Program-made: the position numbers and the translations under genes
Part shown: piece after piece, positions 28,634 through 59,834 of the stretch
Layout of the letters: every line of letters begins with the position of its first letter
How positions within the stretch are numbered: position 1 is the stretch's first letter
Notes under the pieces: model-generated
What the model was told of the DNA's origin: nothing
The model's input: the letters and a program-made list of their open reading frames with translations, nothing else
Database searches by the model: none
Assembly: GCA_902792085.1 (NCBI GenBank)
Contig: CADAYE010000004.1
Span: 1 to 64,000 of the forward strand
Source: an uncultured bacterium
GTDB taxonomy: Bacteria > Cyanobacteriota > Vampirovibrionia > Gastranaerophilales > Gastranaerophilaceae
Direction: 5' to 3'
Length of the DNA stretch: 64,000 nt

Positions 28634-28766
28634 ATCTTTTCCTCTTTTAATTGTTTATATTAAAAGATTATCACAAAAATAAAATATGTTACGCATTATT
28701 GAAGTAATTGAAATAGAAAAAAAAATATGTTATAATTAAATAAACACAGCGGATATGGGATTACGG

Positions 28767-30554
28767 ATGACACAAACAAATAAAAAAACTGCATTTACAC
28801 TTGCAGAAGTTATGATTGTACTTTTGGTACTTACTATATTATTTGCCGCTTTTGCTCCTTTTGTAACAAAAAGAAGAAGAAATGCTGCTTCAAAACAAGA
28901 GTTTTGGATGTGGTCAAGCCGTAACTATATGGCCGGACCAATGAATACATACTACAAACCGATTTCTGATAATTATTCAGGCGGCATATATATAGGTACA
29001 ACTCCCGATTCGGAAAATGATATTAATTCATCTTATACTCCGATATCTAAACTTGTTATTCGTTCCGGATATATTGCAAATAACACTATACAAAGACAAC
29101 TACAACTAAGATACGGAAGAAATAACTATGAAGATCCTGGGCAGTTGGCAGCAACATTTATTGCCGATAATACAAATTTGTTATTTGGTGCTAATTTCCC
29201 TATGCTTCAAAAAAAAGAAAGCGATGAAACATATCCGAGTAACAATGTTGCATTTGGTTTTAATGCAATGAATGGTATAAAAGATTATAAAAATATTAAT
29301 TCAAAAGCAGATAACAACACTGCTTTTGGTAATGATTCGTTACCAAATACATTCGGTGATGATAATACAGCAATTGGTGCCAGAACCGGATATTCAAACC
29401 TTGCAGGAATTGGAAATACATTTATTGGATATGATAGCGGAACTAAAACAGAGTCAAATTACAATACTTTGGTCGGTTACTCATCCCAAGCGCAAGTAGG
29501 AAGTTACAATACTTTTGTAGGGGCTAATACGGGAAATGTTGGGGGATTGCTTGAAGATAGCACTTCTGATTTTCAATATAATGTTGCTGCAGGGTATAAA
29601 GCATTAAGTAGTCTAACATCCGGCAAATATAATGTTGCAATCGGCTCCGGGGCATTAGGTGCTCTTACAACAGGGAGCTACAATACTGCAATAGGATACA
29701 ATGCATGCGCAGGTATTACAGGGCAGTCATACAAAACATGCATCGGTGCAAATTCAGGACCTGCTTCAGATACTCCTGTAAATAGAGAACTTGCATTTGA
29801 CCAAAATGATGCAACCCCCAGAACATATATAGGTTCTAATCCTAATCTTAATAATAAAAATAACTTTTTGACTGACAGTACTTGGAAATCTTCAGGAAGA
29901 TACGGCGGAGATGCTGTTTTAGAAATTCATAATTCCGGGGGCTATGGAAATAACAAACTGATTAACAACCCTGTAATTCAGTCGAATGCAACAACAATAA
30001 TTAACGGAAACCTCATTGTGAGAGGAAAAACTTATCTGACAATGGGCAATATACTTTACCCGTTCTACTATCAGAATAATATTTTCGGAACAAATAAAGA
30101 TGTAAATTGTGCCGCAAATCAAGTTACTTATAATTTTTCTAATGCCGGAGAATGTGCAACACTTGAACCTATAACAAGTGACAGAAGATTAAAAAATATC
30201 TTATCAAAAAATACTAACGGATTAGATAAAATAAAACAATTAAAAGTTTATAACTACAAATTTAAAAATGACAAAAAACAAAAGCGTCATGTCGGAGTAA
30301 TAGCACAAGATTTGGAAAAAGTTTTTCCTAATTCGGTCTTTGAAGGTGACGACGGTTTTCTTAAAATTAAACTCGATGAAATGTTTTATGCTGTAATTAA
30401 TTCAATTAAAGAGTTAAACGATAGGATTGTTTCATTGGTAAAAAGTGTTGTTTCACTTGAAAAAGAGATAACAGACACCGAAAAAGAGAATGCTAAACTT
30501 AAATCACAGGTTGAGTTGCTGACAACAAGAGTAAACAAATTGAAAAATAAATAA
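28767..30554 (+). CDS. Prepilin-anchored fibre protein with S74 chaperone domain (A)
   Basis: A 595-residue chimera. The N-terminal class III signal (KKTA, cleavage before FTLAEVMIVLLVLTILFAAF) is followed by a beta-rich neck with KLVIRSGY and QLQLRYG. YadA-like head repeats follow (NTAFGNDS, NTAIGARTG, NTFIGYDSG, NTLVGYSS, NTFVGANTG, NVAIGSGAL, NTAIGYNA). A shared shoulder (VLEIHN, NGNLIVRGKTY) leads to a C-terminal peptidase S74 domain with SDRRLK, the self-cleavage Ser at 471, and HVGVIAQDLEKVFPN, then a coiled coil. ATG 28755 is possible; 28767 fits better. S74 domains fold trimeric phage fibres and release themselves. Paralogues lie at 32087 and 34208. Confidence 0.88.
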   Translation: MTQTNKKTAFTLAEVMIVLLVLTILFAAFAPFVTKRRRNAASKQEFWMWSSRNYMAGPMNTYYKPISDNYSGGIYIGTTPDSENDINSSYTPISKLVIRSGYIANNTIQRQLQLRYGRNNYEDPGQLAATFIADNTNLLFGANFPMLQKKESDETYPSNNVAFGFNAMNGIKDYKNINSKADNNTAFGNDSLPNTFGDDNTAIGARTGYSNLAGIGNTFIGYDSGTKTESNYNTLVGYSSQAQVGSYNTFVGANTGNVGGLLEDSTSDFQYNVAAGYKALSSLTSGKYNVAIGSGALGALTTGSYNTAIGYNACAGITGQSYKTCIGANSGPASDTPVNRELAFDQNDATPRTYIGSNPNLNNKNNFLTDSTWKSSGRYGGDAVLEIHNSGGYGNNKLINNPVIQSNATTIINGNLIVRGKTYLTMGNILYPFYYQNNIFGTNKDVNCAANQVTYNFSNAGECATLEPITSDRRLKNILSKNTNGLDKIKQLKVYNYKFKNDKKQKRHVGVIAQDLEKVFPNSVFEGDDGFLKIKLDEMFYAVINSIKELNDRIVSLVKSVVSLEKEITDTEKENAKLKSQVELLTTRVNKLKNK

Positions 30555-32086: not shown

Positions 32087-34201
32087 TTACTTCTCTAATT
32101 TATCAAGTTCTTTTGATAAAATAATCAATTTATCTTTCAAGATTTTATTTTCTTTTTTCAAAATTACAATTCGTTCAATATCAGTTTTAACTCTTTTTGC
32201 TAAATCTGAAATCTTTTCATACAATTCTTTAACAGAATTTATGGCAGAATAAAACATTTCATCTCTGCGTATTTTATAATATCCCTTATCGTCTTTTGAA
32301 ACGGCATCAGGGAATATTCGTTTCAAGTCTTGAGCAATAACGCCAACCTGATGAACTTTTTGTTTATCATTTTTAAAAGTAAAATTATAAATTTTAAGTT
32401 TTGATAAAAATTCTAATCCTTTTTCAAATGGCTGACCGACGTTTTTAAGCCTTAAATCACTTGTCACCCCGTTGGACAAATTATCTGTTCTCCTTATCCC
32501 GGTAGGTGTAAGTATAGGACAACATGAACCACCCGTAATCAACTGCGTAACAACTGAATCTGTACCACCTTCAGTAAGATTACGAGCGCCATCAAGTTCA
32601 ATATTTGCGGATGTATATGCTGTATCGTTATAAGAAGAACCGCATATGTGCGGCGAGTGCCCCCAAAAATAATTGTACCCGCCAAAAGAATTATCTAAAA
32701 TATTGTTGTAATTTTTAAATGCCAAATATGACCAATCATAAGAATCTCGTCCTGAATTTGAAGAAGTTGAACAGGAATAATTGCAAATACAGTGCTCCCT
32801 ACCGGTATAGGCTTCACGCATATAATTATCATCATTTTTAATTCTTTGGGTAAATTCGCTTCCGTCATAGCCTATCAATGGTTTATGCGCCAAAGCAGAT
32901 TCTTTGTACAACTTATAACCCATTAAAGATATTGTATTTGCATAAGTGTCTACAGATGCATTAGGTCTCATAGGAAATGGGGAACGCCCAACCATATATG
33001 TCTGACCTCTGACAATCAAATTGCCGTTTACCACAACTGATGAATCCCCTAATTTGGGTGCTCCACTGATATCGTTCGGGTATGGATATTTACTGTTCGA
33101 AGTTGTAAGATTATGAACCTCTAAAGTTGCGGCACCTCCAAAAGCAGAAGTTGGTCTGCCGATAAGAACTCGTTCTTTTGTATCAGTAAAAAATGATTGT
33201 GCTGTTGAGCTCATATTTGTGGTATCAACACCATAACCGCCAATGCATGTTGTATATTTAGATGATGGACCTATACCTTTGCAAGCATTATAACCGATTG
33301 CGGTATTGTATTTGAAATTTGAATAAGAATCATCGGCCGGGTTTGCTGAAAGCAATGCTCCGTAACCTATTGCGGTGTTATAATCTCCTCCGGCATTGGA
33401 GCTGTCCCCTATTGCAACATTATAATCGCCTTTAACATTGATATTATTGCCTACTGCGGTTGTATAATTACTTACACTTGATTTTGACGAAGTATTATTA
33501 CCTATTACAGTATTATAATTCCCTGTTGCAGCATTATAAGAATTGTACCCAACAAAAACATTACCATTACCTGTCGTAAGACTTGCCCCCGCACTGACAC
33601 CAACCGCAGTATTTGCACTACCCGTTGTTAAACTTTTCAGTGTATTATACCCAAATGCAGTATTGTATATACCGGAAGTAACAGAATCTAAAGCATCTCT
33701 GCCTAAAGCGGTATTTCCCATAGCCCCGCTACCTATTTGCATTGCGGTAATATCATTCAAATTAGGCTGAACATAAGTAAAACTTAAGTTGTCATAATTT
33801 CCTCCCAACAACAAATTTGTATTGCCCGCAAAGAGATACCCTTTTTTATCTCCGTCATATCTAAACTCAATCTGTTTTTGAAGTTTATTGCCGTTAATTT
33901 TATTTCCCGAACGAATAATAAGTTTTGAATACGGCTGATAAGTCCTTCTGATATCTTCCAAATCAATTGGAGTGATACCAATAAGAGTTTGTTGGAGCAT
34001 AGAACGAATCGGAGCATCAGTATAAATATCATTCGTATTACTTGCGCCTACAGATCCCCAAACATTATCAAGCGCAATATTTGAATATCTTGATGTGAAA
34101 ATAGGAGCGACAGCAGCAAGAACAACAGTCATAACTGCCATTATGACCATAAGTTCCGCAAGTGTAAATGCGGTTATCAGTTTAGTTTTTACCGCTTTCA
34201 T
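32087..34201 (-). CDS. Prepilin-anchored fibre protein with S74 chaperone domain (B)
   Basis: A 704-residue paralogue of the 28767 protein. Leader MKAVKTKLITA with cleavage before FTLAELMVIMAVMTVVLAAV; neck KLIIRSGN, QIEFRYDG, NTNLLLGG; head repeats (NTALGRDAL, NTAFGYNTL, NTAVGVSAG, NVFVGYNSY, NTVIGNNT, NVAIGDSS, NTAIGYGAL). Shoulder LEVHN and NGNLIVRGQTY; then an extra ~150-residue Cys- and Tyr-rich insert (around EHCICNYSCSTSSN). The S74 domain starts at Ser581 (SDLRLK) with QVGVIAQDLKRIFPDAVS, and a final coiled coil follows. It follows fibre gene C by 6 bases in one operon. Confidence 0.88.
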   Translation of the reverse strand: MKAVKTKLITAFTLAELMVIMAVMTVVLAAVAPIFTSRYSNIALDNVWGSVGASNTNDIYTDAPIRSMLQQTLIGITPIDLEDIRRTYQPYSKLIIRSGNKINGNKLQKQIEFRYDGDKKGYLFAGNTNLLLGGNYDNLSFTYVQPNLNDITAMQIGSGAMGNTALGRDALDSVTSGIYNTAFGYNTLKSLTTGSANTAVGVSAGASLTTGNGNVFVGYNSYNAATGNYNTVIGNNTSSKSSVSNYTTAVGNNINVKGDYNVAIGDSSNAGGDYNTAIGYGALLSANPADDSYSNFKYNTAIGYNACKGIGPSSKYTTCIGGYGVDTTNMSSTAQSFFTDTKERVLIGRPTSAFGGAATLEVHNLTTSNSKYPYPNDISGAPKLGDSSVVVNGNLIVRGQTYMVGRSPFPMRPNASVDTYANTISLMGYKLYKESALAHKPLIGYDGSEFTQRIKNDDNYMREAYTGREHCICNYSCSTSSNSGRDSYDWSYLAFKNYNNILDNSFGGYNYFWGHSPHICGSSYNDTAYTSANIELDGARNLTEGGTDSVVTQLITGGSCCPILTPTGIRRTDNLSNGVTSDLRLKNVGQPFEKGLEFLSKLKIYNFTFKNDKQKVHQVGVIAQDLKRIFPDAVSKDDKGYYKIRRDEMFYSAINSVKELYEKISDLAKRVKTDIERIVILKKENKILKDKLIILSKELDKLEK

Positions 34202-34207
34202 TTATTC

Positions 34208-35941
34208 CTATTTCCTTTCAAGTTTTTTTATTCGTTTTTCTAACACCAAAATTTGTTTATTTATATCCTGATGCTCTTTCTTTATACCTAAAATATCTTT
34301 GTTCGCTTTTACAATTTTTGACGATATATCTTCAAGTTTTTGCGCAAGTTCTTTTACGGCATTGATAAGAGCATAAAACATATCTTCAATTCTGATTTTT
34401 AAATACCCTTTTTTATCTTTTGATACCGCATCAGGAAATACTTTTTGAAGGTCTTGAGCAATAACACCGACCTGAGGAGTTTTTTCATCATTTTTATAAG
34501 TATAATTATATGGTCTGAGTTTTAATATTTTGTTAAGCCCGTCATTGTTCAGAGTTATTGCAGTTTTCAATCGTCTGTCAGACGATACTACATTTGCACA
34601 CCCGTTACCGTTCGGATACCCGTCAGAAGTAGAACAATTACCGCCTTTTATCAGCATATTAACAGATTTTGGGTTAGATCGGGTCAGTTCTTTACATACA
34701 TAATTATTATAGTTTAAGATACTTTGATATGCATCATTACTGCAACGGTAATATGCTGTTTCCGCACCGCCGGTTTGGGTATCAGTAAAGACATTATAAG
34801 AAACTCTGCCGTTTTCATCAGACGGATAAAAATTACCTCTTACAACAAGATTTGAATTTATAACAACATTTCCGTAGGTTTGAGAATCTATTGTATTGTT
34901 ATGTACCTCAAGTATCGAACGACCTGAAAAACCTCTTGTATTGTTTGATTGAGGTTTACCGCCTATAAAAATGTGTTCGTCTGAATCTGTATTAAAAACA
35001 GACGGAGTATTATTTGTTGATACTCCGGAATTATACCCGATACATACTCTTGAACCGTCATTTGCCCCTGATATCGAGCTACACGCACCGTAACCTATTG
35101 CAGTCATTGCTTTTACGGCAGTGTCACCTTTTGTATATACCCCGTAACCGACAATCGTGTTATATGAAGCAGTTGCCCCGGGGAAAACAGAACCGACAAT
35201 TGTGTTATAAGACGCAGATGCTGAATTGAAGCCGTTTCCTGTGTATGCACCTAAAAATACATTGTGAGAACCCTCAGAACCTTCTTTATTCATCGCATTG
35301 TATCCAATAACAACATTATTCTTAGTTTTTGTTCCGCTACCTGCATTTGAACCGACAAAAATACCATACTCAGAACCTTTTTGAGATGCATTATGTCCAA
35401 CAGCAGTTACTTGTATCGAGTTAGACTCAGCAAGTCTCATAGCGCCACTGCCTAATACAGAAAAGAAATTGGCATGGGTACCTTTTAATAATAAATTAGA
35501 AAGACCATATATTGTTGAATTTCCATTTTCATAAGGAGTTATATCCGTACCAAATATAAGATTTGATGTACCCACATACAAATTTGCGGCATTTACCCCC
35601 CTTCCTTGTTCTTTAGGACTTTTAGAATATCTAAACTGCATCTGTGGCTGATAGTCATACGGATCTGTGCCTGAAGCAACAACAAGTTTTCCTGCATTGT
35701 CATCTGCGGTCGTCGGAACCATACCCATATAGACGCTTGAAGTCCATGTTTCGTTTCCGGGGTCAAAATAAGCATTTTTTTCAGCGTCACCCGCTACAAA
35801 ATTCCAAATAGATTCTGTTTCGTGAGTTTCTGCTATATGTCTTTTGGTTACAATAGGAGCCATTGCGGCAAATAAAAGAGCAATAACAACGAGTACTATT
35901 AATAACTCTGTTAAAGAAAATGCCCTTATCCCTGTTTTCAT
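34208..35941 (-). CDS. Prepilin-anchored fibre protein with S74 chaperone domain (C)
   Basis: A 577-residue paralogue, first gene of the two-gene fibre operon. Leader MKTGIRA with cleavage before FSLTELLIVLVVIALLFAAM; neck KLVVASGT, QMQFRYSK, TSNLIFGT; head repeats less regular (VTAVGHNAS, GIFVGSNAG, NVVIGYNAM, NVFLGAYTG, NTIVGSVF, NTIVGYGV, MTAIGYGAC). Shoulder LEVHN and NSNLVVRGNFY; S74 domain from Ser454 (SDRRLK) with QVGVIAQDLQKVFPDAVS; closing coiled coil. ATG 35941 gives the normal short leader; the longer frame to 36001 would hide the signal. A promoter-like TGTTATAAT lies near 35990. Confidence 0.87.
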   Translation of the reverse strand: MKTGIRAFSLTELLIVLVVIALLFAAMAPIVTKRHIAETHETESIWNFVAGDAEKNAYFDPGNETWTSSVYMGMVPTTADDNAGKLVVASGTDPYDYQPQMQFRYSKSPKEQGRGVNAANLYVGTSNLIFGTDITPYENGNSTIYGLSNLLLKGTHANFFSVLGSGAMRLAESNSIQVTAVGHNASQKGSEYGIFVGSNAGSGTKTKNNVVIGYNAMNKEGSEGSHNVFLGAYTGNGFNSASASYNTIVGSVFPGATASYNTIVGYGVYTKGDTAVKAMTAIGYGACSSISGANDGSRVCIGYNSGVSTNNTPSVFNTDSDEHIFIGGKPQSNNTRGFSGRSILEVHNNTIDSQTYGNVVINSNLVVRGNFYPSDENGRVSYNVFTDTQTGGAETAYYRCSNDAYQSILNYNNYVCKELTRSNPKSVNMLIKGGNCSTSDGYPNGNGCANVVSSDRRLKTAITLNNDGLNKILKLRPYNYTYKNDEKTPQVGVIAQDLQKVFPDAVSKDKKGYLKIRIEDMFYALINAVKELAQKLEDISSKIVKANKDILGIKKEHQDINKQILVLEKRIKKLERK

Positions 35942-36047
35942 CCTCAAAAATAACTCCAAAAAATGCCTATACTTATACATAATATTATAACACATTAGCA
36001 ATAATCATTCAATATAATTAACAATTTGTGATATTATTTTAATAGTC

Positions 36048-42151: not shown

Positions 42152-42284
42152 ACAAACTACCCTATCAGACTGTATAAATTGCTAATGTTTTAATGCAATC
42201 AAATATAAATAATCTTCTATGAGTTCGTTTTTTAAAGGTTTTTGTTTATAAAGCAAAAACTTGAACAACACAAGGAGGTTAAAA

Positions 42285-44249
42285 ATGTCAATTAAAAAAC
42301 TAACTGCGGCAGCGGCGATTGCTGTTGGAATAGCAACATGTTCCTTGAATAGTGCAATGGCTGCCTGCCCGTGTACACAAAATGAGGCTTTGCCTGTTGT
42401 AACAGGACCGTCTGATTGTGCAAAACCGCAATGTAATAAATGCAAACGCGCAAAAGCAGATTGCGGCTGCAAAAAGAAAAAGGCATGTCCTGTTAAAACA
42501 CCATGTAATGACGAAATCAGTTGTGACAAACCTGCTGTTCCGTCAACAGCATTGTGTCCTCAATCAGGAAAACCTGACAGTTCTCAAATGAAACAGGTCT
42601 ATGGTTATCCTCAGGCAATTTACGGTACTAACAATTATGTAGGTGAACCTGCAAACTCAATTTTCTCAACAGAAACAGCAATGAAAGGTTGCCCTGCATC
42701 AAGATTGAGTTCTGAAATTTCAGGAACTACAATTTCAACTCAAACCGAAAGTCAAATCACTGGTGCGGCTGCATCTATGCCATGCTTAAACGAATTACCG
42801 AGATGTAACAACGGTGTAAGCGTGAATATGGGTGAAAATAAAGGCTGCCCGATTGATTTCAAATCAGCAAATTCAATTAATGCTGTAAAAAAGTCATTAG
42901 TCCCTTATACTATTAAAGAAAATATTACAGGCGCAGCCGCTCCTGCATTCACAGGCGGTATGTTCCCTGATGTTCCAAACGGTTATTGGGCATCTTGCGA
43001 TATTGATAAATTGGCGATTAACAATGTTGTTGTCGGTTATCCTGACGGAATGTTCAAACCAAACAAAAACATTTCTCGTGCCGAATTTGCGACTATGCTT
43101 GTTAAAGGGTTTAATATGTGTCCTGACGGACATACAACTTCAAAATTCTCTGATGTTTCAACAAGTAATTGGGCAAATCCTGCTATCGCAAAAGCCGTTG
43201 ACGAAGACTTGTTAAGAGGCTATCCAAACCATACCTTCAAACCTCACAACCATGTTACAAGAGTAGAAGCATTAACTTCAATCTCAAAGGGTATGACTTG
43301 TGATATAGATTCTTGCAAGGCAGACCAAATTTTAAGTAAATACGCTGACGGGAATAAAGTTCCTAACTGGGCAAGAATACCTGTTGCAAAATCGCTTCAA
43401 AACGGTGCTTTAAGCGATAGCCCTAACCCAAATATGATTATGCCAAATCGTGATGCAACAAGGGCAGAAATTGCTTCAATGATGCAAAATACAAGAGTTG
43501 CACTTGGCTATGATAAAAATCCTATGACTGCAAACAACATTTGTCCTGCATGTCCGATAGAGAAAAAAGCATTACTTGAACAGGAAGAAATAGTTAAAAT
43601 TCCAACATTAAAATTGTCTATGATTGACCAGGTTAATGCAAAATCATCCCATGTAGGTCAATATTTCAGAGCAAACACTTTAGAAGATGTGACAATAAAC
43701 GGTGTTAAATATCCTTGCGGCTCAACAGTAACAGGTCAGGTCGTTGAAGTTATCAGACCGTCAGGATGTAACAAAGGTGCATTAAAACTTGCATTTACAA
43801 GTATTACAAACGGCAAATGTAAAACTAAATTACCAAAACAAATTTTGCAGGCTCAGGTAAATAAACAGAAAAACCTTAATCCTGTTGCGAGATTAGTTCA
43901 GATGCCGTTTACTTGGACAGGCTCACTTATCGGTATTGTAGGCAGAACTGCAGGCGGTATATTGACTAATGTCGGTAACGCAGCCGAAAATGTCACAAAT
44001 GATGCCGGTTATGTATTAGGTCACGGTTTTTCAGGTCAATTTGGTGCCGCAGCAAGAAGTCTTGGCGACGGCTTGTATGAAACAGTCAAAGCACCGGTTG
44101 ATGTGACAAGAACTGCCGTATCAGGTACAATGGGCTTATTCCAGACAACAGGCGATGAATTTGCATATCTTGTAGACCCGAGAGGTTACAAAATCTCTGC
44201 GGTTAACCCAAGAGAACACATAACAATTGCCTTTGGTTGTAATGAATAG
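42285..44249 (+). CDS. SLH-domain envelope protein, Cys-rich
   Basis: A 654-residue exported protein. Signal peptide 1-26 (ends NSAMA), then a Cys/Lys-rich segment (CNKCKRAKADCGCKKKKACP) and Cys-containing pieces to ~200. Three SLH repeats follow at about 226-276 (FPDVPNGYWA, VGYPDGMFKPNKNISRAEFA), 287-337 (FSDVSTSNWA, RGYPNHTFKP) and 353-402 (RATRAEIASMM-like end). The C-terminal part (~430-654) has a beta domain and Gly/Ala helices. SLH repeats bind cell-wall polymers, so this may link peptidoglycan to the outer membrane as in cyanobacteria. A perfect AAGGAGGT site suggests high expression. ATG 42285 restores a normal signal peptide. Confidence 0.9.
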   Translation: MSIKKLTAAAAIAVGIATCSLNSAMAACPCTQNEALPVVTGPSDCAKPQCNKCKRAKADCGCKKKKACPVKTPCNDEISCDKPAVPSTALCPQSGKPDSSQMKQVYGYPQAIYGTNNYVGEPANSIFSTETAMKGCPASRLSSEISGTTISTQTESQITGAAASMPCLNELPRCNNGVSVNMGENKGCPIDFKSANSINAVKKSLVPYTIKENITGAAAPAFTGGMFPDVPNGYWASCDIDKLAINNVVVGYPDGMFKPNKNISRAEFATMLVKGFNMCPDGHTTSKFSDVSTSNWANPAIAKAVDEDLLRGYPNHTFKPHNHVTRVEALTSISKGMTCDIDSCKADQILSKYADGNKVPNWARIPVAKSLQNGALSDSPNPNMIMPNRDATRAEIASMMQNTRVALGYDKNPMTANNICPACPIEKKALLEQEEIVKIPTLKLSMIDQVNAKSSHVGQYFRANTLEDVTINGVKYPCGSTVTGQVVEVIRPSGCNKGALKLAFTSITNGKCKTKLPKQILQAQVNKQKNLNPVARLVQMPFTWTGSLIGIVGRTAGGILTNVGNAAENVTNDAGYVLGHGFSGQFGAAARSLGDGLYETVKAPVDVTRTAVSGTMGLFQTTGDEFAYLVDPRGYKISAVNPREHITIAFGCNE

Positions 44250-55628: not shown

Positions 55629-55661
55629 TACATTAAAATTATAGCATAATTATCTCTGATG

Positions 55662-55670
55662 TGGTATAAT
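55662..55670 (+). promoter_or_regulatory. Extended -10 promoter of the WecG/TagA gene, probably leaderless
   Basis: TGGTATAAT, then six bases (ATCTAT), then the ATG at 55677. No Shine-Dalgarno sequence exists. No clear -35 box; the TG motif would compensate. Confidence 0.55.
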
Positions 55671-55676
55671 ATCTAT

Positions 55677-56393
55677 ATGGAAAGAAATACAGTTGATATT
55701 TTGGGATATGGAGTCGATACTTTTTCATTTGATAATGCAGTGGATTATATCGTTAATAATCATGGACAAATTGTAACAATAAACCCCGAAATGATTGAGT
55801 GTGCTGACAAAGACAATAATTTCAGAACTATAATAAACAATGCGGAAATGGTTGTACCTGACGGAATCGGTATTCAGTTGGGATTAAAGATTTTAGGCAA
55901 AAATGTAAAAAGAATCCCCGGTATTGATTTAGGAAAAGCACTTTTAATTCGCGCAAATAATCTTAATAAATCAGTCGCTTTTGTAGGCGCAAAACCTAAA
56001 GTTATTGAAAATGCGGTAATAAATATTAAATCAGAATTACCTAATCTTAATATTGTATATCAACATGACGGTTATTTTTCAGATGCAAATGTTATTATCA
56101 ACGAATTACAGGAAAAACAACCTGATTTTGTTCTTGTCGCATTGGGTTCGCCTAAGCAGGAATTTTTTATAAGTGAACTGAAAGGGCTGTTACCAAATGC
56201 TGTTATGATAGGTCTTGGCGGAAGTTTTGATGTTTGGGCAGGAATGGTAAACAGAGCCCCGAAAATATATCAAAAACTTGGTCTTGAGTGGCTATATCGT
56301 ACAATATCAGAACCAAGAAGAATTAAAAGAATTTTTCCTTCGTTACCGTTTTTTGTGTTAAAAGTTGTAAAAGAAAGGATGATTGGGAGATAA
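55677..56393 (+). CDS. WecG/TagA/CpsF family glycosyltransferase
   Basis: A 239-residue GT26 enzyme that adds a sugar (N-acetylmannosamine or its uronic acid in known members) to a lipid-linked precursor of surface polymers. Motifs: NPEMIECADKDNNF, VVPDGIGIQLGLK, RIPGIDLGKALL, ALGSPKQEFFISEL, GLGGSFDVWAG and the C-terminal RAPKIYQKLGLEWLYRTISE. Cytoplasmic face of the membrane. The first gene of an apparent operon with the transketolase half (2-base gap) and more. ATG 55677 is the family start. Confidence 0.92.
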   Translation: MERNTVDILGYGVDTFSFDNAVDYIVNNHGQIVTINPEMIECADKDNNFRTIINNAEMVVPDGIGIQLGLKILGKNVKRIPGIDLGKALLIRANNLNKSVAFVGAKPKVIENAVINIKSELPNLNIVYQHDGYFSDANVIINELQEKQPDFVLVALGSPKQEFFISELKGLLPNAVMIGLGGSFDVWAGMVNRAPKIYQKLGLEWLYRTISEPRRIKRIFPSLPFFVLKVVKERMIGR

Positions 56394-56395
56394 TT

Positions 56396-57220
56396 ATGTT
56401 ATCCGAATTAGAAATAAATGAATTAAAGAATTATTGCAAAGAAAGCAGACGCAATATTATTGATATGGTATATTCCGCTCAATCAGGTCATATTGGTGGT
56501 TCGCTTTCATCATGTGAACTTTTGACTGTTTTGTTTCACAAGTGCATGAACAATGTTTTGGATTGGAAAGAATCACCTTCTTATGAAACAAGAGACAGAT
56601 TTGTTCTTTCAAAAGGACATATATCACCTTTATTATATTCCGTTATGGCGCAAATCGGATATATAGATAGAGAAGAATTAAAAACTTTTCGTAAATTAGG
56701 TACAAGACTTCAGGGGCATCCTACAACTGTTTTGCCTGGAATTGAAATTCCGACAGGTTCATTGGGGCAGGGTTTGTCATTTGCATGTGGAATTGCAATG
56801 TCTTTAAAACTTGATAATAATCCTGCAAATGTGTTTGTTTTGTTAGGTGATGGTGAAACTCAGGAAGGTAATGTATGGGAAGCATTTATGCAGGGCGCTC
56901 ACAGAAATCTGAATAATCTTGTGGCAATTATAGACCGAAACATGCTTCAAATTGATGGTAATACAGAAAATGTTATGGCGCTTGGAGATTTATCAGCGAA
57001 ATTAACATCTTTTGGTTGGAATGTTATAGAAATTGACGGTCATGATATTGAACAAATATATGAAACAATCGAAAATGCAAAAAAGTCAGACAAACCTTCT
57101 GTAATAATTGCTAACACAATTAAAGGCAAAGGTGTAAGTTTTATGGAAAATAACCCGGGCTGGCATGGTACTGCACCAAAAGAACCTGATTATCTCAAAG
57201 CAATGGAAGAACTTAAGTAA
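56396..57220 (+). CDS. Transketolase, N-terminal subunit
   Basis: A 274-residue TPP-binding half of a split transketolase. It has SKGHISPLLYSVMAQ, GHPTTVLPGIEIPTGSLGQG and the thiamine diphosphate site GDGETQEGNVWEAFMQGAHR with IIDRNMLQIDG. The C-terminal (pyrimidine/Tkt-C) subunit is needed for the pentose phosphate reaction and is normally next to it; here the following gene is a prepilin, so the partner must be elsewhere. GGGAGA precedes the ATG; 2 bases separate it from the glycosyltransferase gene. Confidence 0.93.
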   Translation: MLSELEINELKNYCKESRRNIIDMVYSAQSGHIGGSLSSCELLTVLFHKCMNNVLDWKESPSYETRDRFVLSKGHISPLLYSVMAQIGYIDREELKTFRKLGTRLQGHPTTVLPGIEIPTGSLGQGLSFACGIAMSLKLDNNPANVFVLLGDGETQEGNVWEAFMQGAHRNLNNLVAIIDRNMLQIDGNTENVMALGDLSAKLTSFGWNVIEIDGHDIEQIYETIENAKKSDKPSVIIANTIKGKGVSFMENNPGWHGTAPKEPDYLKAMEELK

Positions 57221-57244
57221 TTATATACTTTCTGGGGGTATTTA

Positions 57245-59380
57245 ATGAGGGATATAACTAAAAAACTTAAAAATGCTTTTACACTTATGGAAATAGGCAT
57301 AAGTCTATTAATTGTGAGTATTTTAGTAATGTTGTGTATTCCTATTGTTGTAAATCAGACTAAAAAGACTGATGAATTTGCATATTATATGGCATTTAAG
57401 ACTGTTGAAAAAATGGCGTCTCAAATTGTCGCGTTTGGAGATCCTGAAGGTGTTATTGACCCTGATGCAGGTGCATACAATCTTTATACTCCTTTAAAAA
57501 CAAAAAATTATGTTGCAAACTTACAAAATGATTTATCAAAGTTTTTTATTCCAAAAGCACATGCAGCAATACAAACATCTGAAATCGTATCATTTCCGAG
57601 TTATGAGTACGATTATGTAAGAGTTTGTCTTGGAAATCCGAATGTTGTAAAAGATTATGATGTTTATGCAGGTAATACATGGTCTGATACTGAAATACAA
57701 TCTGTTCAAAATGAAACGCTTTGTAAGAATTTATTTGGAACTAATGATTTTATAAAAAAAAGATTTATGTGTTCTAATATGTCTGTTGCAGATATAAAAG
57801 ATATGCTTTCAAAAACAACTATGAGTGCTAAAGATTATTGTAAGTGGCTTGCTCAAAATTGTACAGGCGCATATATGTGTAATTCAGACAAAAAAGATTG
57901 TTATAAAGAAGTACTTTTAACTCAAACTTCTAATATTGCTTCATATGGGGAATGTATAATAAGTGTAAATGATCCTGACTTGGATTACACTCAACCGATA
58001 CTGGAAGTTGGAAGTGATGAAACAGTTACAAACTTTATAACTTGCAATCAGTATGGGTTTACAAACATGGTTAATAATGCAACAAGTACTGCAATTTTCT
58101 GTCAGTGTGATCAAAACTATCCTGTTAGAGCAGTAAATAACAGCAATATTTGTTGTCCTACACCTGAAGAAGGCAAATTTCCTTATTATGCTTCTGTGGA
58201 TGTTCCTTGTCTGAATTGCAGTTATGGTGCTTTTAATGAAAAAACAAGAACATGTTGCCCTCAAAATTCAACATATAGCGCTTCATTAGGGAAATGCGTA
58301 TGCTCTGAGGGATATACACCAAATGATGATAATACAATTTGTAGTATTTCCGATTCAAGATGCCCTGCAGGTTCGCATCTTGTCGATAATACTTGTATAA
58401 CTAATTCTCCAATTGTTAGTGCAAAAAGATTCTGCGAATTAGTTTCGTATAACTGGAATGTTTCAACGCATAATTGTGATAAATTCAAAGATGATGACGG
58501 AGTGGCTTATTATGAGGATTTATATAAAGCTATAACGAAAAGTAACACACCATATCTTTCTTCAAAAGCTGTTGTCGGTGCTTTTAATGAAGTTGAGCCG
58601 AATATAATTTTTGCAAACGGATTGAGAATGTGGATATTATCGGACAAGTCTGCTTCAATTGCGGGTTTATCATACAATCCTGATGATTATGAGCCTAAAG
58701 TTAATATATGCAGATATAAAGCAGATGCTGACGAAACATCATGTTCAGCCGAAACTGACTTTTATTGTAAAAATGATGAAAAATGTTTTTCTGTTGACTC
58801 TGGTAACGGTTCACAAAAACTCAAAGATTCAAGGAATTGCTGCTCAACTGCCGATTTTTCTGATTTAGTCAACCTATATGAAGGTAAAGGTTATCTTAAA
58901 GACTCAAGAACATATGCAATTAATGGCTTTACAGTATTTATTGATATAAATGGCACAAAAGATAATGATGAAATGGGTAAAGGTGGTACACTATGGAAAG
59001 ATGTATTCCCGTTTTATGTAAGTTCAAATGGGCATGTTTATCCTGCATATCCTCTAAACGCTGCAAAAGCAAGTGCAGATAAGTCAGACAGCGCATCATT
59101 GTTTCAAGGGGGCAACAGTTCGGCTTTGAGTGCGGATGTATTCTACTATGATGTAATTGATGGTAAAAGAAAAAAAATAAATGTTTATCCGTCTATACCT
59201 TATGCCAGAGCATTATGTTTGTCAATGGAAATAAGTGCTTTTACTCCGTACTGCCAAAACCTTGGTTCGAAATTCAGAGACAGTCATACACCTATTGATA
59301 ATTTTATATATTCTGATGATAACCCGTGTTACAAGCACAGGTGTTTTGTAAAACTTAAAAATAAGGTTAAATTCTTATAG
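57245..59380 (+). CDS. Large Cys-rich prepilin-like protein with EGF-like segment
   Basis: A 711-residue protein with a class III signal: MRDITKKLKNA, cleavage before FTLMEIGISLLIVSILVMLC. It continues like a pseudopilin (long helix to ~60). Residues ~240-420 are densely Cys-rich in the pattern of EGF/TNFR-type modules (CPQNSTYSASLGKCVCSEGY, CPAGSHLVDNTC); CC pairs recur (ICCPTPEEG, TCCPQNS, NCCSTADF). The rest is a large domain without a recognised family, containing VFIDINGTKDNDE. It is probably a surface-exposed, disulfide-stabilised minor pilin or adhesin. GGGGG precedes the ATG. Confidence 0.85.
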   Translation: MRDITKKLKNAFTLMEIGISLLIVSILVMLCIPIVVNQTKKTDEFAYYMAFKTVEKMASQIVAFGDPEGVIDPDAGAYNLYTPLKTKNYVANLQNDLSKFFIPKAHAAIQTSEIVSFPSYEYDYVRVCLGNPNVVKDYDVYAGNTWSDTEIQSVQNETLCKNLFGTNDFIKKRFMCSNMSVADIKDMLSKTTMSAKDYCKWLAQNCTGAYMCNSDKKDCYKEVLLTQTSNIASYGECIISVNDPDLDYTQPILEVGSDETVTNFITCNQYGFTNMVNNATSTAIFCQCDQNYPVRAVNNSNICCPTPEEGKFPYYASVDVPCLNCSYGAFNEKTRTCCPQNSTYSASLGKCVCSEGYTPNDDNTICSISDSRCPAGSHLVDNTCITNSPIVSAKRFCELVSYNWNVSTHNCDKFKDDDGVAYYEDLYKAITKSNTPYLSSKAVVGAFNEVEPNIIFANGLRMWILSDKSASIAGLSYNPDDYEPKVNICRYKADADETSCSAETDFYCKNDEKCFSVDSGNGSQKLKDSRNCCSTADFSDLVNLYEGKGYLKDSRTYAINGFTVFIDINGTKDNDEMGKGGTLWKDVFPFYVSSNGHVYPAYPLNAAKASADKSDSASLFQGGNSSALSADVFYYDVIDGKRKKINVYPSIPYARALCLSMEISAFTPYCQNLGSKFRDSHTPIDNFIYSDDNPCYKHRCFVKLKNKVKFL

Positions 59381-59390
59381 TGAGGTTTGT

Positions 59391-59834
59391 GTGATTACAG
59401 ATAAACTTGAAAATATTGATATATATTGTAACATCCCAAATTCTGCAAAAGATTTTATAAAATGTCTTACCAAAAGTGCTAAATTAGGGCGTGTAAATTT
59501 ATCAAATGATATTTATGTAAATATTGAAACATACAAAACAAAAATGCCGGCAGATGCACAATTTGAAGCACATAATAAATATATAGATATTCAAATTATT
59601 TTAAAAGGGAATGAATTGATATCATATACTGACAAATCAATATTAACCGTTAAAACGCATTACAATGAAGAAAAAGACATTACCTTTTATTCTGAAGCCG
59701 TAAATGATTATCCATATATAAAATTAGACGGTTCAAATTTTGTTATGTTGTTTCCGCATGAGGCACATGCGCCGCAAATTTGTGACGAAAGCCCATCAGA
59801 AGTAAAAAAAGTCGTAATAAAAATTAAAGTTTAA
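59391..59834 (+). CDS. YhcH/YjgK/YiaL family protein
   Basis: A 147-residue cupin-like protein of the YhcH/YiaL family, linked to sugar metabolism (sialic acid or beta-galactoside-related in known cases; exact role uncertain). Motifs: FEAHNKYIDIQIILKGNELI and LFPHEAHAPQICDESPSEVK then KVVIKIKV. Metal-binding residues appear kept (the two His and Glu). The start is GTG at 59391 with TGAGGT just before it, 10 bases after the prepilin stop. The stop abuts that of convergent miaA. Confidence 0.88.
   Translation: MITDKLENIDIYCNIPNSAKDFIKCLTKSAKLGRVNLSNDIYVNIETYKTKMPADAQFEAHNKYIDIQIILKGNELISYTDKSILTVKTHYNEEKDITFYSEAVNDYPYIKLDGSNFVMLFPHEAHAPQICDESPSEVKKVVIKIKV

Follow-up and report, generated by a model that had tools for sequence, protein, structure and literature searches.

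A modular prepilin with a cysteine-rich, probably disulfide-tied insert at a conserved locus in a genus of Gastranaerophilaceae

The window analyzed here is a 64,000-nucleotide stretch of DNA from an uncultured bacterium of the Gastranaerophilaceae (contig CADAYE010000004.1, positions 1 to 64,000), and it carries an open reading frame for a modular prepilin of 711 residues in a row of same-strand genes (Table 1). The gaps between the glycosyltransferase gene (wecG), the transketolase half (tktN), the pilin gene, and yhcH are 2, 24, and 10 bases, so cotranscription is likely; a promoter scan returned sites no more numerous than in shuffled sequence. All 24 of the genus loci that were read have the same gene order: orf278, then wecG > tktN > pilin > yhcH, then miaA, orf245, and hgdC. 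The 19 loci read in other genera are more varied: six have a pilin directly after tktN (299, 307, 309, 328, 336, and 560 aa), two have it ahead of wecG (443 aa in one, 705 aa with 53 Cys in the other), four have no pilin, and seven have the transketolase C-terminal half (tktC) in the pilin's place. The original prediction described the setting as odd. The glycosyltransferase and the transketolase half are indeed present, and the setting can be explained as a rearranged wecG-tktN-tktC operon, since those seven other-genus genomes hold the three genes together and the tktC of the window's genome lies elsewhere, on another contig beside ftsE/ftsX-like genes (names read from the sequences, unscored). 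The wecG-tktN-tktC arrangement is likely the older state.

Table 1. Positions of the modular prepilin gene, its parts, and its conserved neighbors in the window
Feature	Position	Strand	Basis or remark
WecG/TagA/CpsF glycosyltransferase, conserved neighbor	55659..56393	+	Pfam, locus comparison
Transketolase N-terminal half, conserved neighbor	56396..57220	+	C-terminal half at G000:C6
GGGGG, probable ribosome binding site, 6 bases before ATG	57234..57238	+	Read from sequence
Modular prepilin gene, 711 aa, start codon ATG	57245..59380	+	ORF, genus search, alignment
Class III leader MRDITKKLKNA, residues 1-11	57245..57277	+	Cleavage inferred from motif
Alpha-1 helix region, hydrophobic, residues 12-65, common to short orthologues	57278..57439	+	Alignment
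Insert, about residues 66-395	57440..58429	+	Largely lacking in pilins of 260-336 aa
Tightly spaced Cys modules, residues 286-390	58100..58414	+	Alignment, Cys columns, paired loss, AF2
C-terminal pilin core, residues 391-711	58415..59377	+	Alignment, profile matches
Second Cys-bearing insertion in core, about residues 476-556	58670..58912	+	Largely gaps in short orthologues
Family motif GFTVFIDING...LWKDVFPFYVSSNGHVYPAYPL, residues 561-604	58925..59056	+	Common to other genera's prepilins
YhcH/YjgK/YiaL family protein, conserved neighbor	59391..59834	+	Pfam, locus comparison

The N terminus of the protein, MRDITKKLKNA/FTLMEIGISLLIVSILVMLCIPI, fits the class III pattern of type IV pilins, with a short charged leader, G or A at position -1, and a hydrophobic stretch with Glu5. 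Among the 34 rows available for counting the signal, 3 are cut by contig ends, and all 31 relatives with an intact N terminus carry [GA]F[TS]xxE, with residue -1 being G in 18 and A in 13. The originally predicted prepilin of 711 residues, class III signal included, is borne out. The NCBIfam ComGC N-terminal model matches the protein with an E value of 1.6e-6, which is under the model's cut-off; Pfam N_methyl is absent from the window protein's matches at E ≤ 1 and is listed for 19 of 30 family members. In a PDB profile search the N terminus matched geopilin and PilA.

Genes for T2SSE, T2SSF, and a secretin (PilB, PilC, and secretin) are adjacent in the genome, which also has another three T2SSE proteins that score above the cut-off and 16 N_methyl matches. 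A prepilin peptidase is encoded about 8 kb downstream of the pilin gene; against Peptidase_A24, whose cut-off is 26.5 bits, it scores only 20.5 (17.6 in a second scoring), though it matches A24_N_bact clearly (E 2.1e-34). Apart from the T2SSE gene next to the secretin, the genome has T2SSE frames of 360 and 374 aa, the size of the retraction ATPase PilT, and judging by that size they are presumably PilT. A neighboring set of T2SSE, T2SSF, and secretin genes is, on its own, compatible with either a pilus or type II secretion, and since the leader resembles ComGC/GspG models and GspK offers a precedent for an extra domain inside the pilin chain (available text of PMC8179133), the protein might instead be a minor pseudopilin of such a system, with an insert that is periplasmic or recognizes secreted cargo. 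We consider this unlikely, because of the PilT-sized frames and because the insert varies strongly among members, which would be unusual if the cargo were fixed. The extra domain of GspK also differs in kind, as it is alpha-helical and set into the beta-sheet, in contrast to the disulfide-rich array here (available text of PMC8179133).

The original prediction proposed looking for the same fusion in related gut genomes, and a protein search (E ≤ 1e-5) with the 711-aa pilin gave matches in 39 of the 46 genomes of the genus. Thirty of these 39 are represented in alignment A1 and 34 in a larger alignment, with G009, G014, G033, G036, and G039 left out of the alignments. Profile searches matched 146 of 288 genomes in the taxonomic family and 69 of 244 in the phylum, all 69 of which share one family label; among the matches listed, full-length ones all come from the same genus, and those from other genera cover mainly the first 60 to 140 positions or about positions 540 to 700. 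Compared with PDB entries, ribosomal protein S1 scored best against long bacterial bS1 and not against the chloroplast protein, which lends no support to a Gastranaerophilales-type (Melainabacteria) lineage, and neither S1 nor the sigma factor singled out a phylum. Seven genus genomes have no match. In six of them (G029, G031, G032, G035, G037, and G040) the site is empty, with yhcH following tktN; the seventh, G011, is 66% complete and has no tktN hit and 3 prepilin signals. In a FastTree tree of wecG, tktN, and yhcH (44 tips, topology only), the six empty-site genomes occur at two positions within the genus, consistent with two losses. The absence was not put down to loss of the pilus system as a whole, an explanation that was rejected because the seven matchless genomes retain 3 to 12 prepilin signals; the six with an empty site keep 5 to 12, and the pilus system can thus do without the 711-aa pilin.

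The bounds of the insert were set by alignment to the short pilins at the same locus and to L073, a 260-aa pilin frame from a different locus. At this locus in other genera, the pilins L156, L157, L158, L161, L166, and L160 share with the 711-aa protein the site between tktN and yhcH, alpha-1, and the C-terminal core motif; five of them differ in having 299 to 336 aa and 6 to 10 Cys, whereas L160 has 560 aa and 26 Cys. A small Cys motif occupies the insert's place in the 336-aa pilin. Since the short pilins at this locus are without most of the insert, the Cys-rich segment was built into a pilin frame, and by sequence comparison it grew within that frame in this genus. Cys-rich inserts with different repeats are found in another genus, g7 (L064-L074 and L162), and these are probably of independent origin. 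L162 (genome G194) is a 705-aa prepilin with 53 Cys in the open frame, and its insert holds an array of short repeats, each with two Cys, of the CWDGSxxxxxSxCP type.

Mean pairwise identity is 24% and 35% in the insert, against 60% in alpha-1 and 55% in residues 561 to 711. The N-terminal part of the insert, residues 66 to 262, is poorly conserved, and the Cys-rich modules follow at 263 to 390. Across 31 members, region 66-262 spans anywhere from 59 to 382 residues, and this wide variation in length is what might be expected if the insert were a structural spacer or protective stalk without a ligand of its own; disulfide-tied hairpins form stiff rods, which would also suit such a role. Region 263-390, however, keeps a length of 110 to 146 residues and conserves GY, CPxG, and N positions in addition to its Cys, more than a spacer would need, and a spacer or stalk therefore seems improbable to us.

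The protein contains 35 Cys, 34 of them beyond residue 60. The motifs quoted in the original prediction are present, but the "~180 residues" given for the Cys segment is too short, as the Cys run from residue 128 to 411 with a second block at 489-533. Nineteen Cys columns are invariant, being kept in 30 of 30 aligned members (33 to 86% identity), which exceeds what chance would give, and the six Cys of the second insertion (C489, C500, C508, C514, C532, and C533) are each invariant in 30 of 30. After residue 60, 30 of the 31 full-length members have an even number of Cys, and the numbers range from 28 to 36; the lone exception is L034, which has 31. Three members cut by contig ends (L020, L030, and L037) were omitted from the parity and pairing counts. 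Several columns are gained or lost together, with a phi of 1.0: 176/206 (both in 22, neither in 9, mixed 0), 212/219 (both in 6, neither in 25), 288/303 and 325/337 (each with both in 28 and neither in 3), and 307/324, found in relatives only (both in 12, neither in 19). The pair 304/322 has a phi of 0.85 with 2 mixed rows of 31, and the pair 397/411 is lost jointly in a single row and so carries little weight. These rows share ancestry and are nonindependent, and invariant Cys carry no pairing information.

A Cys content this high could also serve to bind metal or perform redox chemistry. The even Cys number and the paired loss fit disulfides rather than either of these, and the genome encodes a dedicated oxidase, a VKOR-DsbA fusion, in line with the DsbA-type oxidation genes that the original prediction had suggested checking for; we regard a metal or redox role as very improbable. 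Going by the alignment, all extracytoplasmic Cys of the 711-aa pilin are most likely in disulfides.

The segment had been called EGF/TNFR-like. No domain in Pfam or NCBIfam is above cut-off in the window protein, and no Pfam EGF model passes, EGF_Teneurin reaching 10.7 of 24.3 bits. Among 30 family members, 6 have a cEGF match, at best with E 2.2e-4, and one or two match other EGF models. The full-length AlphaFold (AF2) model was poor, its mean pLDDT of 39 being too low to show the globular head, built on an antiparallel beta-sheet, that follows alpha-1 in type IV pilins; residues 262 to 414, modeled from six sequences, gave a mean pLDDT of 70 (about 87 to 92 for 292-341) and a series of short strands. 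Matches to known folds were weak. The top Foldseek rows for this model are EGF, TNFR, and furin-like proteins, none at E ≤ 1e-3 and with TM scores near 0.2; the best is the EGF protein Pfs25 (E 2.5e-3, TM 0.18), and TNFR1 matches at E 0.053. VIA-align against 672 chains returned a single row at Z ≥ 2, a granulin (Z 2.6). Naming a fold for residues 262 to 414 was therefore rejected, the matches from both programs being too weak, and families outside these listings may also fit.

The granulin row and a PDB profile match of positions 355-380 to the insect metalloproteinase inhibitor IMPI alpha (E 0.83), which we take to be a TIL domain, would be in keeping with Cys modules that are protease inhibitor-like or granulin-like, directed for example against protozoan or host proteases, but both matches are at noise level and we give this possibility very little credence. 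EGF modules pair their Cys in the order 1-3, 2-4, 5-6. In the 711-aa pilin, paired loss indicates mostly neighboring pairs instead (288/303, 304/322, and 325/337), with one interleaved set, 304/322 with 307/324, in a subset of members; Cys 338 to 384 are invariant or nearly so and thus uninformative on pairing. What the segment does have in common with EGF, TNFR, and granulin modules is tightly spaced Cys in predicted short beta-hairpins. Because the EGF models stay under cut-off in the window protein and the structure matches are weak, we do not file it as EGF; alignment and modeling suggest an array of hairpins tied by disulfides, broadly similar in kind to EGF, TNFR, and granulin modules. 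The disulfide-rich insert of the original prediction is therefore supported, and its EGF modules are not established.

Pilins with adhesive modules grafted onto them are known, as in PilB and PilC of Streptococcus sanguinis (available text of PMC8179133 and PMC9934059). Like the 711-aa protein, these have a class III signal, a small pilin part, and a bulky extra module, and they are far above the usual pilin size; they differ in that the module, a vWA or lectin domain, is C-terminal to the pilin part, whereas here a Cys-rich insert with no curated domain model lies between alpha-1 and the C-terminal core. As far as the available text of PMC8179133 goes, modular pilins consist of a pilin part plus an extra module, which is what we find with the insert at about 66-395. 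The search described there was for extra domains that a database signature identifies as nonspecific to pili; the window protein has none over cut-off in Pfam or NCBIfam. That source also counts modular pilins whose modules are without signatures, so the missing signature makes for a weaker filing rather than a weaker likeness. In open-licence literature we found no report of EGF-like, Cys-rich prepilins or of type IV pilins with an EGF-like domain, and print may differ. Across the sequences compared, the disulfide-rich modular pilin is real and genus-wide, its insertion being visible against the shorter same-locus pilins.

The reading we favor, and hold to be somewhat probable, is that the gene product is a modular minor pilin whose disulfide-rich insert is a binding arm presented by a filament, most likely at or near its tip. 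Sequence comparison shows the class III motif, the inserted architecture, the conserved paired Cys, and the genes for export, filament, and oxidation; filament incorporation, tip position, adhesion, and a ligand are what we infer from the analysis as a whole. The encoded prepilin peptidase would cut the class III leader, and alpha-1 would hold the subunit in the membrane and later in a type IV filament, with the C-terminal core making the predicted pilin head. The VKOR-DsbA fusion enzyme would oxidize the insert between alpha-1 and the core, and the oxidized insert could then project as a protease-resistant arm, putatively from the tip, and contact a particle, a microbe, or a host surface. The "host- or prey-contact minor pilin" originally predicted would be one form of this reading and is plausible by analogy with the S. 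sanguinis PilB and PilC.

An architecture with an inserted disulfide module would be an addition to the catalogue of modular pilins. Natural controls are at hand in the same-locus pilins of other genera that are without most of the insert and in the six empty-site genomes of the genus, and the gain of binding modules by pilins becomes testable. The finding also draws attention to a lineage of gut bacteria whose disulfide-rich prepilins have multiplied. We tentatively consider, while doubting it more than not, that pilins here are scaffolds displaying a recognition repertoire that is built from disulfides and has evolved repeatedly, a species-specific, receptor-like surface array; this idea draws on arrays of Cys modules between alpha-1 and the core in at least two genera, on a companion prepilin with 2,481 residues and 254 Cys, and on a 2.2-Mb genome with as many as 149 prepilin signals.

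The 2,481-residue prepilin is an open frame at L086:3139-10581 (G000:C19) and consists mostly of CC-rich repeats behind a pilin-like head. It is matched in 40 of 46 genus genomes (E ≤ 1e-10), in many to the head only; the six without a match (G011, G029, G031, G032, G035, and G040) all belong to the seven in which the 711-aa pilin had no match either. In G023, an open frame of 26,118 residues beside a relative of the giant prepilin was rejected as a gene, since N bases account for 24,000 of these residues, translated as X. A 487-residue prepilin frame at L087:2205-3665 (G000:C29) has 28 Cys, many of them in its CC-rich C-terminal half. Contigs C17, C26, and C32 of G000 (L093, L089, and L092) have near-identical prepilin N termini at their ends, which suggests that repeated prepilin genes break the assembly. 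N_methyl matches number 149 in G005, 114 in G229, 111 in G054, 93 in G038, 88 in G007, and 84 in G066, in genomes of 1.8 to 2.2 Mb. Three more outsized prepilins lie in the window, at 28755-30554 (+), 32087-34201 (-), and 34208-36001 (-), with 599, 704, and 597 aa; by eye their repeats resemble YadA heads, and each scores above the Pfam cut-off for Peptidase_S74, an intramolecular chaperone domain (E 8.6e-18, 6.6e-14, and 3.1e-17, respectively). The pilin-S74 architecture is mentioned in the available text of PMC8179133. At 42261-44249 (+) the window also encodes a protein that has an S-layer homology domain (SLH E 7.8e-27) and is Cys-rich in its N-terminal region.
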